64,000 bases of DNA from Geoglobus acetivorans (GTDB lineage Archaea > Halobacteriota > Archaeoglobi > Archaeoglobales > Archaeoglobaceae): positions 1,612,001 through 1,676,000 of the forward strand of contig NZ_CP009552.1 of assembly GCF_000789255.1 (NCBI RefSeq), in the 5' to 3' direction. Made by a program: the position numbers and the translations under genes. Below, one piece after another: positions 13,929 to 17,940 of the stretch. The notes under the pieces are model-generated. The model was not told where the DNA came from. It did no database searches and worked only from the letters and a program-made list of their open reading frames with translations. Numbering within the stretch: the stretch's first letter is position 1; the number at the start of each line of letters is the position of its first letter.

Positions 13929-13955
13929 AATTTTTTATTGCAGCTCTCTGAAGAT

Positions 13956-14336
13956 ATGGTCGTGAAGTTCAAAATTTCAAAAAAAGTCTGGGATTTTTTG
14001 AGGTCTGTGGTACAAAGCGATTTCGAACGGTGCGGGCTTCTTTTTGGCAGAGGAGACGTGGTTCTGCAGGCGATTGAAATAGAGAATATCAGAAAATCTC
14101 CTGTTGAGTTTGAGCTATCTCCTTTGGAGTCTCTGAAGGCATTTGAAGAAGCTGAAGAAAAAAACCTGGAAGTTGTAGGCGTCTGGCACACACACCTGCA
14201 GAACGCCACCCCCTCAGCAAAAGACATCCAGGGGATGAAGAACTTCCCCGGCCTCTGGATAATCTCATCCAGAAAAGAAATTCGGGGCTATGTGCTGGAA
14301 CGGGAAGTTTTAGAAGTTGAACTTGAGATAATTTAA
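13956..14336 (+). CDS. JAMM/MPN+ metalloprotease
   Basis: JAMM enzymes remove ubiquitin-like proteins; archaeal ones cleave SAMP conjugates. The metal site is visible as E24 in FERCGLLFG and H78-T-H80 with S87 and D90 in WHTHLQNATPSAKD. The spacing between the second His and the Ser is six residues, one fewer than the usual seven. The protein has 126 residues, only the core domain. I chose ATG 13956 over TTG 13938. Its end overlaps the convergent PRC-barrel gene by 4 bases. Confidence 0.8.
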   Translation: MVVKFKISKKVWDFLRSVVQSDFERCGLLFGRGDVVLQAIEIENIRKSPVEFELSPLESLKAFEEAEEKNLEVVGVWHTHLQNATPSAKDIQGMKNFPGLWIISSRKEIRGYVLEREVLEVELEII

Positions 14337-14599
14337 CCATCTTCCTCGTTCTTCTTCCTCTCCATCTTCCTGAAAAGATCTTTGATAATAACGATATCTC
14401 CAACAGCTTTAACGAACCTGTACGGAATTATGACCCCGTTTGCTCTTGTGTTTATCAGCATCCTGTTCACGTCAACAATCGCCAGTCCCTTGACCTGTCT
14501 CGCCTCGATATCTATTGAAATGTCTGCCACTCTGCCGACATACCTCCCCTCATCCGTGTAAACTCGCAGTCCAAGAACTGATGACACTTCACCGATCAT
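14333..14599 (-). CDS. PRC-barrel domain protein
   Basis: This 88-residue protein is a single PRC barrel (MIGEVSSVLGLRVYTDEGRY, VADISIDIEARQVKGLAIVD, GVIIPYRFVKAVGDIVIIK) with a charged C-terminal tail. Small PRC-barrel proteins in euryarchaea take part in cell division (CdpB type) or RNA metabolism; which applies here is unknown. ATG 14599 is preferred to GTG 14605 because GGTGG then lies at normal spacing. Confidence 0.85.
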   Translation of the reverse strand: MIGEVSSVLGLRVYTDEGRYVGRVADISIDIEARQVKGLAIVDVNRMLINTRANGVIIPYRFVKAVGDIVIIKDLFRKMERKKNEEDG

Positions 14600-14651
14600 T
14601 TTCACCCACCAATAATTCCCTTGAACTTTTAATATATTAAACTTTCAGTCA

Positions 14652-15893
14652 TCATTTCTCAAACTCAATTTCGTAGATTTTTCTCAAACCCTTTAGGTTT
14701 ATCACGTGTTCAACGTCTCCGCGATGAATTACCCTGAATGCATGCTCTATGATTTTTTTGTAAAACTCACAGAACGGACTCTTTTCCAGCATCGTCCCGG
14801 CTTCAGCATACACCTCTGCCGGACATGGTGCACCGCAGATGTTTCTGTAGGTGCATTCCCTGCATTCCTCGATATTTTCCACGGTCCTGTTTCTTATCTC
14901 CTGGAAATGATTTGTTGCATTTTCAAGATTTCCGAGATCTGTTCTGAACTGTTCCATTCCAATAAATTCTCCGCACGGGAAAATTCCGCCGGGAGTTATT
15001 GATATAAACCTTCTTCCTCCTCCACATGGAGATATGTCGCACTGGAGCACTCTTGAATACGGAGCAATGATCCCGAGCAGTATGTTTGCAAAATCTCCAA
15101 TAACGATTCTCCTGCCGTTCTTTGTATGCCATATCGCTCTTTCAACGGCATCAATAAAGTGTTCGGCAGCCTCAAGGGGATCCGGTCTCAATGACCTGCC
15201 CCCCTCGCTCGTCCCCCTGACGGGGTTCATCAGAACAAGTCTAACCTTTCCTGCCAGAAAATCCACCATTTCAGCTAAGTGGGTATAGTTATGACGGTTT
15301 ATCGTTGTAATGATGTTCAGGTTCGCGTAGCCGTTAAACATATCAAGCAGCTCAACAATTTTTCTGTGGTGTCCATTCCCCCGTAAAAAGTCGTCAGTTT
15401 CCCGTCTTGGAGAGTCGAATGATAGGCCCACATTCACATTCCTCTCAACGAGGAATTCAACATCATGACTTTCAAGCAGAAAGCCGTTTGTCTGGATGCC
15501 AAACCTGTAATCAAATTCGTCAATCGCTTTGAAGATCTTATCCTTAACAATCAGAGGTTCAGCACCGTGGAAGATTATGTTCCTGACTCCCAGCGTTTCC
15601 AGTCTTTCCAGAATATCCCTTAGAGTTTCATAGTCCATCTCTCTACCCCTGTTTCTTATTTCTGGAGGAATGTAGCAGTAGGAACAGTTTGCGTTGCACC
15701 TCTCTGTGGGGTTTATGTATGCAGTGTTGAAATCAACATCAAATCTGTATTTCTTCATCCTCTCTGTGAGCGCCTTCCTGTTTTCTTCATGGAACTTCAG
15801 TATCTCCTCGGGCAGGATTTCTTCGTAAATTGCCCAGAAGTTGGTTTCAGGATCTATGGCAACCTTAAATCCGCTGAACTCTATGGTTTCCAT
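14652..15893 (-). CDS. cbpB: radical SAM/SPASM peptide-modifying enzyme, CbpB-like
   Basis: This 413-residue enzyme has a radical SAM core with the cluster cysteines C66, C70 and C73 (RCNANCSYCYIPP). The barrel is followed by a C-terminal SPASM region rich in cysteine (CDISPCGGG, IFPCGEF, EECRECTYRNICGAPCP, SPFCEFY) that would hold auxiliary Fe-S clusters. SPASM enzymes of this build modify ribosomal peptides. The gene directly follows a 27-codon peptide gene, 17 bases apart, and has a strong GAGGTG before its ATG. The pair fits the archaeal CbpA/CbpB families (TIGR04165/TIGR04163 as recalled; accessions to be checked). The chemistry is unknown. Confidence 0.85.
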   Translation of the reverse strand: METIEFSGFKVAIDPETNFWAIYEEILPEEILKFHEENRKALTERMKKYRFDVDFNTAYINPTERCNANCSYCYIPPEIRNRGREMDYETLRDILERLETLGVRNIIFHGAEPLIVKDKIFKAIDEFDYRFGIQTNGFLLESHDVEFLVERNVNVGLSFDSPRRETDDFLRGNGHHRKIVELLDMFNGYANLNIITTINRHNYTHLAEMVDFLAGKVRLVLMNPVRGTSEGGRSLRPDPLEAAEHFIDAVERAIWHTKNGRRIVIGDFANILLGIIAPYSRVLQCDISPCGGGRRFISITPGGIFPCGEFIGMEQFRTDLGNLENATNHFQEIRNRTVENIEECRECTYRNICGAPCPAEVYAEAGTMLEKSPFCEFYKKIIEHAFRVIHRGDVEHVINLKGLRKIYEIEFEK

Positions 15894-15910
15894 AAGCCCA
15901 CCTCAAAAAA

Positions 15911-15994
15911 TTAGAACGGGGACTCCTCCCCGGGCATGACGTAATGCGTAAGGCCTCCGCCAACCTCGCACTCGAACATGTAGCTGTACGCCAT
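15911..15994 (-). CDS. cbpA: CbpA-like modified peptide precursor (27 aa)
   Basis: A 27-codon gene lies just before the radical SAM gene. The peptide begins MAYSYM and continues FECEVGGGLTHYVMPG, ending EESPF. The core ECEVGGGLTHYV matches what I recall as the conserved part of the CbpA precursor family: one Cys, a Gly run, and Thr-His-Tyr as likely modification targets. A TATA box (GCTTATATT on the minus strand, about 16017-16025) is centred about 26 bases before this ATG, giving a leaderless transcript and independent support for the start. Confidence 0.8.
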   Translation of the reverse strand: MAYSYMFECEVGGGLTHYVMPGEESPF

Positions 15995-16015
15995 GACTGG
16001 AAATCTGCATGAGGA

Positions 16016-16026
16016 AATATAAGCTT
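16016..16026 (-). promoter_or_regulatory. TATA box of cbpAB
   Basis: AAGCTTATATT on the minus strand lies 22-32 bases upstream of the cbpA ATG, the normal archaeal TATA-to-start distance for leaderless mRNA. A perfect palindrome lies directly upstream. Confidence 0.6.
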
Positions 16027-16030
16027 AATT

Positions 16031-16054
16031 TTTGTATTACGATAGTAATACAAA
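16031..16054. promoter_or_regulatory. perfect 10-bp inverted repeat upstream of cbpA TATA
   Basis: The arms TTTGTATTAC and GTAATACAAA flank a four-base GATA centre. The palindrome ends five bases before the cbpA TATA box and about 65 bases before the TATA region of the divergent M28-like gene. Its position suits a regulator binding site, most simply an activator site for cbpAB. No linked regulator was identified. Confidence 0.5.
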
Positions 16055-16161: not shown

Positions 16162-17940
16162 GTGTCCAAAAGAAATTACGGCGTTTTGTTGAAAGGAGCT
16201 TCTATCGGCACTTTTCTGGCCATAGCTGTGGCTCTTGCTGCTGTAAGTGCTGCTGGAGCAGAGGAATCGTATGGGTATTACATTAACAACATCAATCCTG
16301 AGTGGATGATCTCTGCAGACGAGTTCTACCGATGGCATGAGATGAAAGACTCATGGGGACCAACCTTCGCAGGGAGCCCGGCATGGCAGAGCTACATGGA
16401 CTTTCTGGAAGACAAGCTGAAAGAATACGGTGTTGTGGACATCGTCAAGAACAACTGGACGTACACGAGATGGTACACAACAGAATGGCCTGACGACAGC
16501 GGGTGGAGTCTCTACGTGGATGGAGAGAAGATCAGAGTGGCCAGCTATTCTGCTTATTCCGGTTCAACGGATGAAGATGGGATTACTGCCCCCCTCGTGT
16601 ATTATGGCCCTGCAAATCCTCCTGAATCCATTGAAGGCAAGATCGTTGTTTTCTCCATTGCGCCTCACCCCAAGCCACCCTACAGCCCGAAGTATCTGGC
16701 ACTGTTCACCTTCAATGACTACGAGTACCTTTCTGATCCAGAGACTTTTCCGCCGATCCACACTCCCGTCTCGACAAACCTGACCGTTTCACTGGATGTG
16801 TGGTATCAGCTCAATCAGGTAAGGAGCTTTGCCAAGATAATGTCAGAGGGCAAGGCTGCCGGTGGGGTGGTGATATTCAACATGAGCTATGACAGAGCAG
16901 CCGGGCTCTACACGTTTCCCGTTCCGTCATCTGTGCCAGGTGTTCCAACCCTGTTACTGGATAGAGAGGCCGGGGAGACGGTAAAGCAGGCAGCTCTCGA
17001 AGGAAAGGAGGCAACCCTGAGACTGGTTGCCAGAGAAGAACCCGCTGAGGTTTACCAGCTCATAGGATTCCTTCCGGGCAAAAACTACGGGACTCCTGAT
17101 GACGAGATAATACTGCTGATTACGCACACCGACGGGCCATCAATCTCTCAGGAAAACGGTGCTCTCGGACTGCTGGGAGTTGTTGGTTACTTCTCCCATA
17201 TACCGCAGGACGAAAGACCGAGAACCCTGATGATTTACCTCGATTCGAGACATTACATGCCGGGCAAAGAAGAGAAGTGGGCAGAATATGACTGGCTGGA
17301 AAACCATCCAGAGATTAAGGAAAAGATCGTTGGCCTCATTGCAATGGAGCATCTGGGCCAGGTTGAGTACCGTGAAATCGGCAATAAGTTCGAGCCAACC
17401 GGGCTCGTTGAGCCATCGTTCCTCTGGACCCAGAACAACCAGAAGCTCATAGATATGGCCATCAAGGCTGTCAAGGAAAGCGGGTGGCCGAGGGTACAGG
17501 TTCAGTGTGTTGACAGGCCCGGAGTGCATGGGGAATCACAGGGAATATGGTACGGAATGGGCAAGATAGCGAGGAAGTGGAAGATTCCGGCGTTTGCCAC
17601 AATGGGCACCCAGGGGGCTTACTGGGCAACCTCAGCAGGAATTGAAAAGTTTGACAGGGATCTGTTCTACAGGCAGGTTGCAGCCATGACCCAGCTGACC
17701 GGAGAACTCATGCTGGGCAATCTGGAGGAACTGAAGCCTGTCGAGACTCCAGCCCCCGCACAATCGTCTCCAACACCCACTCCGACCCCTGAACACACCT
17801 CAACCCCGGAGCCGGTCTCAACACCTGCAGCTGAGGAAACACAAAAACAGGAGAAGGAGGTAAAAACACCGGGATTTGAGCTGATACTTGCCGCTGTTGG
17901 ACTTATGGTTGGGTTATATGTCCTGAGGAGAGGCAATTGA
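16162..17940 (+). CDS. secreted M28-like peptidase-fold protein with PGF-CTERM anchor
   Basis: The 592-residue protein starts with a signal peptide (hydrophobic GTFLAIAVALAAVSAAGA, about 16-33). It has an inserted PA-type region at about 130-300 and an M28-like core (ILLITHTDGPSISQENGALG) at about 320-520. A Pro/Thr linker and a C-terminal tripartite signal, TPGFELILAAVGLMVGLYVL then RRGN, match PGF-CTERM, the archaeosortase A target. The first metal motif HTD is present, but the usual final histidine appears replaced (GAYWATSAG), so activity is doubtful. The start is GTG with GGTGG upstream, and a TATA-like TTTTTAAATATTATA is at about 16118-16130. Confidence 0.75.
   Translation: MSKRNYGVLLKGASIGTFLAIAVALAAVSAAGAEESYGYYINNINPEWMISADEFYRWHEMKDSWGPTFAGSPAWQSYMDFLEDKLKEYGVVDIVKNNWTYTRWYTTEWPDDSGWSLYVDGEKIRVASYSAYSGSTDEDGITAPLVYYGPANPPESIEGKIVVFSIAPHPKPPYSPKYLALFTFNDYEYLSDPETFPPIHTPVSTNLTVSLDVWYQLNQVRSFAKIMSEGKAAGGVVIFNMSYDRAAGLYTFPVPSSVPGVPTLLLDREAGETVKQAALEGKEATLRLVAREEPAEVYQLIGFLPGKNYGTPDDEIILLITHTDGPSISQENGALGLLGVVGYFSHIPQDERPRTLMIYLDSRHYMPGKEEKWAEYDWLENHPEIKEKIVGLIAMEHLGQVEYREIGNKFEPTGLVEPSFLWTQNNQKLIDMAIKAVKESGWPRVQVQCVDRPGVHGESQGIWYGMGKIARKWKIPAFATMGTQGAYWATSAGIEKFDRDLFYRQVAAMTQLTGELMLGNLEELKPVETPAPAQSSPTPTPTPEHTSTPEPVSTPAAEETQKQEKEVKTPGFELILAAVGLMVGLYVLRRGN

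Follow-up and report, generated by a model that had tools for sequence, protein, structure and literature searches.

The window analysed here, a stretch of 64,000 nucleotides, belongs to a complete, Archaeoglobaceae-like chromosome of 1.86 Mb. It contains a very short gene, cbpA, directly upstream of the gene for a radical SAM/SPASM enzyme, cbpB, together with the following elements:

14652..15893, minus strand: cbpB, a 413-residue radical SAM/SPASM enzyme (TIGR04163, 485 bits; PF04055)
15898..15904, minus strand: Shine-Dalgarno sequence GAGGTGG before cbpB (direct reading)
15911..15994, minus strand: cbpA, a 27-codon precursor peptide gene, MAYSYMFECEVGGGLTHYVMPGEESPF (conserved frame; TIGR04164 with an E-value of 3e-4, below the curated cut-off; co-occurrence with cbpB)
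16015..16022, minus strand: TATA-like box TTATATTT (direct reading, not scored statistically)
16032..16053: perfect 9+9 bp palindrome TTGTATTAC-GATA-GTAATACAA, a predicted operator in common with cobT (genome-wide pattern search)

The gap between the two genes is 17 bases long (15894-15910), and on re-reading, both frames and the gap agree with the preliminary description of the locus. The TATA box that it had assigned to the peptide gene is also present in direct reading: the centre of TTATATTT lies about 25 bp upstream of the cbpA start codon (ATG), in keeping with an archaeal promoter and a leaderless transcript, which probably starts at or next to the ATG. Judged by eye, relatives have AT-rich, TATA-like stretches at the same place. 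The palindrome is located 10 bp upstream of the box. As part of the explanation that we favour overall, cbpA and cbpB would probably form one small operon.

Family assignment and conservation of CbpA and CbpB

CbpB belongs to TIGR04163 (rSAM_cobopep), which it matches with 485.3 bits at a curated cut-off of 375; the next models, for PapB, DynA and the sulfatase maturase, reach only 88-92 bits. CbpA matches TIGR04164 (cobo_pep) with an E-value of 3e-4 and 20.3 bits, below the curated cut-off of 35, and the four homologues we tested outside the A. fulgidus type also fall below it (13-35 bits), whereas the A. fulgidus peptide, whose core is the same, scores 59.8 bits. Because of its score, we assign MAYSYMFECEVGGGLTHYVMPGEESPF to TIGR04164 in the sense of homology, as judged from its conserved core and its position directly before cbpB, and not as a formal member. 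Since the same shortfall is seen in all four homologues, the curated threshold is set too high for this family, in line with the earlier remark that so short a gene would escape routine annotation. The matches uphold the preliminary reading of the locus as a CbpA-like precursor with a CbpB-type enzyme, and of the two models it had suggested for a search, TIGR04163 proved correct for the enzyme, while the peptide model is TIGR04164 and not TIGR04165.

The pair itself thus falls into named families and is known as such. Our literature searches found no paper on the function of CbpA or CbpB, only the family names, in agreement with the view that the product is undescribed. The short name 'cobopep' suggests that the NCBIfam curators were aware of a genomic context linked to cobalamin or cobalt.

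Archaea and bacteria together gave 43 distinct loci, and in 41 of these a cbpA frame stands upstream of cbpB. The two loci lacking it are L085, whose enzyme is a distant homologue scoring under the family cut-off, and L081, in which the enzyme frame is truncated. Common to the peptides is a core, C-x(3-7)-GL-(T/S)-H-(Y/F), worded with a further glycine as C-x(3-7)-GGL-T/S-H-Y/F in the explanation that we favour, and most have an aromatic residue and a glutamate or lysine ahead of it. Cysteine and histidine are invariant in archaea and bacteria alike; tyrosine is replaced by phenylalanine and threonine by serine in some peptides. The 26-27 copies from Archaeoglobaceae show no replacement of C, G, L, T, H, Y, P and F, including the final P-F, but the codons of these residues vary freely (four for glycine, six for leucine, four for threonine). 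Synonymous change in the core is therefore free and replacement change almost absent, as is to be expected of a RiPP precursor gene under purifying selection.

We also searched 55 Archaeoglobaceae genomes with a degenerate DNA pattern for C...GLTHY(V/I). It matched all 27 genomes with cbpB and none of the 28 without it, always at cbpA and in one copy per genome, while the reversed pattern, used as a control, matched 1 of 55 genomes. In view of the 41 of 43 loci, the invariant residues with varied codons and this clean split, the cbpA frame is not a product of chance. The preliminary description had made the peptide depend on a conserved short frame upstream of the enzyme in relatives and on substitutions typical of a translated gene, and both are found.

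Two copies are irregular. In one Archaeoglobaceae genome (G038:C10:19068-19101, minus strand; L061/L009), cbpA has a one-base frameshift in the Cys-Gly stretch, which may be decay or an assembly error; it adjoins an intact cbpB, with an archaeal cobT 1.35 kb downstream of the latter. In another archaeal family (f12; G072, L076), the peptide stops right after GLTHFV, without the -SPF tail, by natural truncation or error.

The enzyme carries the radical SAM motif CxxxCxxC at residues 66-73 (C66/C70/C73) and eight further cysteines (285, 290, 307, 344, 347, 353, 357 and 375). These eleven are invariant in 41 homologues, with one exception at C347, and in our favoured explanation they would probably hold three [4Fe-4S] clusters. 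An AlphaFold model of CbpB (pLDDT 87.7) matches CteB, anSME, TigE and ChlB. In the model, the part before the radical SAM domain consists of three strands and one helix and would be a reduced recognition domain at most.

Among solved structures, the thioether maturase CteB (5WGG, 5WHY), which has a SPASM domain, is the best match to CbpB in both sequence and fold. CbpB differs from it in that only the short strand-helix part precedes its radical SAM domain. In addition, CteB has no cysteine aligned to C285, so one of its auxiliary clusters has one ligand fewer, and its precursor class is cysteine-rich, whereas CbpA has a single cysteine. The one invariant cysteine of CbpA and the extra C285 of CbpB set the pair apart from the ranthipeptide systems of CteB and PapB, and the PapB model scores 91.8 bits on CbpB against a cut-off of 340. 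With both auxiliary clusters predicted to be fully ligated and a single cysteine in the substrate, the open-site thioether mechanism of ranthipeptide maturases is weakly argued against for CbpB.

The anaerobic sulfatase maturase anSME (4K36-4K39) matches CbpB in fold and in the aligned eight-cysteine auxiliary pattern, including C-x2-C-x5-C-x3-C-x17-C. Yet CbpB scores 87.5 bits with TIGR03942 (cut-off 349), and its substrate would be a free-standing peptide without the sulfatase motif C/S-x-P/A-x-R, no sulfatase being involved. A parallel in mode of action is offered by PqqE/PqqA and MftC/MftA, in which a SPASM enzyme and a short conserved peptide serve cofactor biology; such enzymes start the synthesis of PQQ and mycofactocin from peptides. 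In contrast to these systems, CbpA has other core residues, neither a PqqD-like partner nor a dedicated peptidase was seen nearby, and the pair is linked to cobamide synthesis.

A palindrome in common with cobT and a candidate regulator

Allowing up to three mismatches in 16 core positions, a search of the whole genome found exactly two palindrome sites, both of them perfect: the one at cbpA and, about 1 Mb distant, a second (G000:C1:638489-638508) that lies 15 bp upstream of the cobT start. A simple count gives an expectation of about 0.0004 perfect sites for a genome of 1.86 Mb. The reversed control pattern gave four sites at three mismatches, and the weight therefore rests on the perfect matches. 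In six genomes of the genus, all ten sites with at most one mismatch precede cbpA or cobT. Genomes of other archaeal families have the site between cbpA and a divergent regulator gene; in two loci without cbpAB (L175, L177), it is flanked by the regulator gene and cobT. One perfect copy from a different family (L170, G357:C15:159607-159626) has no match to cbpAB, cobT or the regulator nearby and may be due to chance or to another regulon.

The product of cobT is the lower-ligand phosphoribosyltransferase of cobamide synthesis, and its substrate is the lower-ligand base. The cobT of the host matches TIGR00303 with 376.6 bits (cut-off 240) and is related to MjCobT (9e-47). MjCobT, an archaeal lower-ligand phosphoribosyltransferase of the same family as the palindrome-bearing cobT, activates 5-hydroxybenzimidazole and adenine (PMC9561151); the available passages of that paper mention neither a peptide partner nor a regulator for it. 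Our literature search found no paper on an archaeal 'Cbl-box', with which we neither equate nor contrast the palindrome.

Using a profile of the divergent gene, we found a regulator homologue of 283 residues in the host genome (G000:C1, near 125252-126061, minus strand; L150:1459-2310, minus strand). Full-length matches are present in 22 of 55 family genomes, and they go together with the palindrome. Before cobT, the site (at most three mismatches, 5-16 bp before the start) occurs in 20 of 21 genomes with the regulator and in 0 of 22 without it, where the best upstream matches have 6-9 mismatches. Before cbpA, the site (at most four mismatches, 59-63 bp before the cysteine codon) occurs in 13 of 13 genomes with the regulator and in 0 of 13 without it, so that half of the 26 cbpAB-bearing family genomes examined have neither regulator nor palindrome. 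These counts are phylogenetically non-independent, and many of the genomes are drafts. P values calculated from them ignore shared ancestry, and the contrast within a single genus is the safer evidence: there, both states occur and the association is kept (regulator present in G050 and G052, absent from G049, G051, G053 and G054).

A structural model of the regulator (pLDDT 85.8) has ribbon-helix-helix (RHH) helices followed by a domain whose best PDB folds are of the ThiL, selenophosphate synthetase and HypE type, and a weak AIRS match agrees with a ThiL-type fold. Within the explanation we favour, this protein probably binds the palindrome at 16032-16053. The kinase fold of its modelled sensor part (ThiL/PurM) suggests that it may respond to a nucleotide rather than a metal, and as the ThiL-type fold includes alpha-ribazole kinases, sensing of a lower-ligand nucleotide is an attractive idea. 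Cobalt-uptake genes (cbiM) adjoin the regulator gene in two outside genomes and leave room for a cobalt role. In A. fulgidus (L140), the gene after that of the regulator encodes a siroheme-synthase-type dehydrogenase (TIGR01470) and is another tetrapyrrole gene. As far as our literature searches reach, the cobT regulon, its operator and the RHH-ThiL-fold regulator are new; the family models of CbpA and CbpB include none of the three.

Gene neighbourhoods and proposed role in cobamide synthesis

In Archaeoglobaceae, cbpAB forms a two-gene island, whose recurring neighbours are common to the closest relatives only, and in most of these genomes it is not next to cobT. The neighbours in the window (a PRC-barrel protein at 14333-14605, a JAB-like protein at 13938-14336 and a 592-residue protein at 16162-17940) recur within the genus only, and we discarded them as partners because this indicates synteny. 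The last of these, encoded on the plus strand and divergent to cbpA, looks secreted and has no Pfam match at an E-value of 0.001. Rich in Thr and Pro along one stretch and with TPGFELILAAVGLMVGLYVLRRGN as a tail of PGF-CTERM-like character, it may undergo archaeosortase processing, and by eye only it resembles M28 peptidases.

Outside the family, the surroundings are different. In eight of ten genomes from two other archaeal families of the same phylum, cbpA, cbpB and cobT (PF02277, 461 bits) follow each other on the same strand with gaps of 1-60 bp, and a gene with an RHH N-terminus is divergent before cbpA. In three bacterial loci, cbpAB stands within a run of cobC, cobU, cobT, cobS, cobD, cobQ, cbiB, a Dph6-like gene and btuF, joined in two of the three by btuC and btuD; bacteria are under-sampled here. 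In each of these operons (L033-L035), the Dph6-like ATP pyrophosphatase gene (TIGR03679, below cut-off) comes after cbpB or cbiB. In operon or in regulatory site, cbpAB is thus connected to the cobamide system. The preliminary description, whose reading of the pair stood, had missed the palindrome inside its own interval, the second occurrence before cobT and the cobamide operons of other genomes.

Many genomes have cobT but lack cbpAB, and in L175 and L177 this is so although the same regulator and palindrome accompany cobT; cbpAB is therefore an optional add-on that is not needed for every CobT. Further candidates were set aside. The cobalt chelatase CobN, considered as a partner, is absent from the host genome, and its distribution among the family genomes is not tied to that of cbpB. 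TIGR04386 (ThiC_like_1), considered as a marker of a benzimidazole-making enzyme, has one match in almost every genome, always below the cut-off and most likely ThiC. A CobT of any kind (PF02277) is encoded by most genomes, whether they carry cbpB or lack it, and we found no CobT residue that cleanly separates genomes with cbpAB from those without.

From the protein-level conservation of CbpA, its exact pairing with CbpB, the shared palindrome, the co-occurrence of the regulator and the operon linkage in other lineages, all of which are computed, we infer with moderate confidence that CbpA is an intracellular, CbpB-modified peptide for cobamide synthesis, most likely for the lower-ligand step of CobT, and that it is controlled together with cobT by the RHH-ThiL regulator. 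The peptide, of about 27 residues, would be made ribosomally from a probably leaderless transcript, and CbpB would very probably modify its Cys/Gly/Thr/His/Tyr core. The mature form would stay inside the cell and serve cobamide synthesis, most likely at the step begun by CobT, where it could be an accessory factor, a carrier of the ligand or of a corrinoid, or the precursor of a special lower ligand. In the host and in Archaeoglobaceae like it, the RHH-ThiL/PurM-like regulator would switch cbpAB and the distant cobT together by binding to the palindrome and sensing a nucleotide of the pathway. We would rank the roles, roughly, with an accessory function at the CobT step ahead of a cobalt or corrinoid carrier, and this ahead of a special lower ligand. 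More tentatively, we propose that the modified peptide is a working part of the CobT step, co-controlled with cobT by an undescribed RHH-ThiL factor; in the strongest form of this proposal, the peptide itself would supply or carry the lower ligand.

Other explanations ascribe different tasks to the peptide. CbpB-matured CbpA could be a metallochaperone that holds, delivers or buffers cobalt or a corrinoid through its cysteine, histidine, threonine and tyrosine, consistent with the invariance of cysteine and histidine across archaea and bacteria, with the cbiM/cbiQ-type cobalt uptake genes and cobN close by in three loci (L083, L084, L034) and with the RHH N-terminus of the regulator, a fold also found in NikR. 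We consider this unlikely, since in the genus of the host the palindrome marks cobT and cbpA, hence a late step and not cobalt uptake or insertion, and the distribution of CobN and the sensor fold of the regulator both count against it. That a small molecule is excised from CbpA, as in PQQ and mycofactocin synthesis, for instance an unusual lower ligand activated by CobT, would fit the tight link to cobT in operon and regulon, the nature of the CobT substrate and the optional character of cbpAB. It is nevertheless rather improbable: cbpAB has no recurrent companion gene for a peptidase or a tailoring enzyme, the replacement of tyrosine by phenylalanine and of threonine by serine in some peptides means that the atoms of the core are not always the same, and CobT itself has no residue that distinguishes genomes with the pair.

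The layout of a radical SAM/SPASM gene with a short peptide is the usual one of sactipeptides, ranthipeptides and cyclophanes, and the nearest characterised models of CbpB are such maturases; the pair could therefore make an exported antimicrobial or signal, with an incidental cobamide neighbourhood. Across 44 loci, however, cbpAB has no recurring neighbour for transport, proteolysis by a peptidase or immunity, the core, in contrast to arms-race peptides, hardly varies from phylum to phylum, and cbpA is single-copy in each genome and tied with cbpB to cobT by palindrome and operons, all of which make this very improbable. Equally hard to credit is that cbpA acts on cbpB as a uORF or regulatory leader peptide instead of encoding a substrate. 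It is short, directly upstream and probably on a leaderless transcript, but its conservation extends in amino acids, and not in codons, up to the last residues; bacterial frames have basic N-terminal extensions and ribosome sites of their own, cbpB has its own Shine-Dalgarno sequence, and the enzyme family modifies peptides.

Our favoured explanation, a CbpB-modified peptide acting in cobamide synthesis, gives two families that had been named without a function a specific and testable place in late cobamide assembly, on account of the genome-unique operator in common with cobT and the operon linkage in archaea and bacteria. That the peptide gene is missed would be explained by the cut-off of the public model, which leaves out most of the homologues tested. 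If the explanation is true, a ribosomal peptide would join the B12 pathway, and a candidate archaeal regulator of cobT would be named together with its DNA site.
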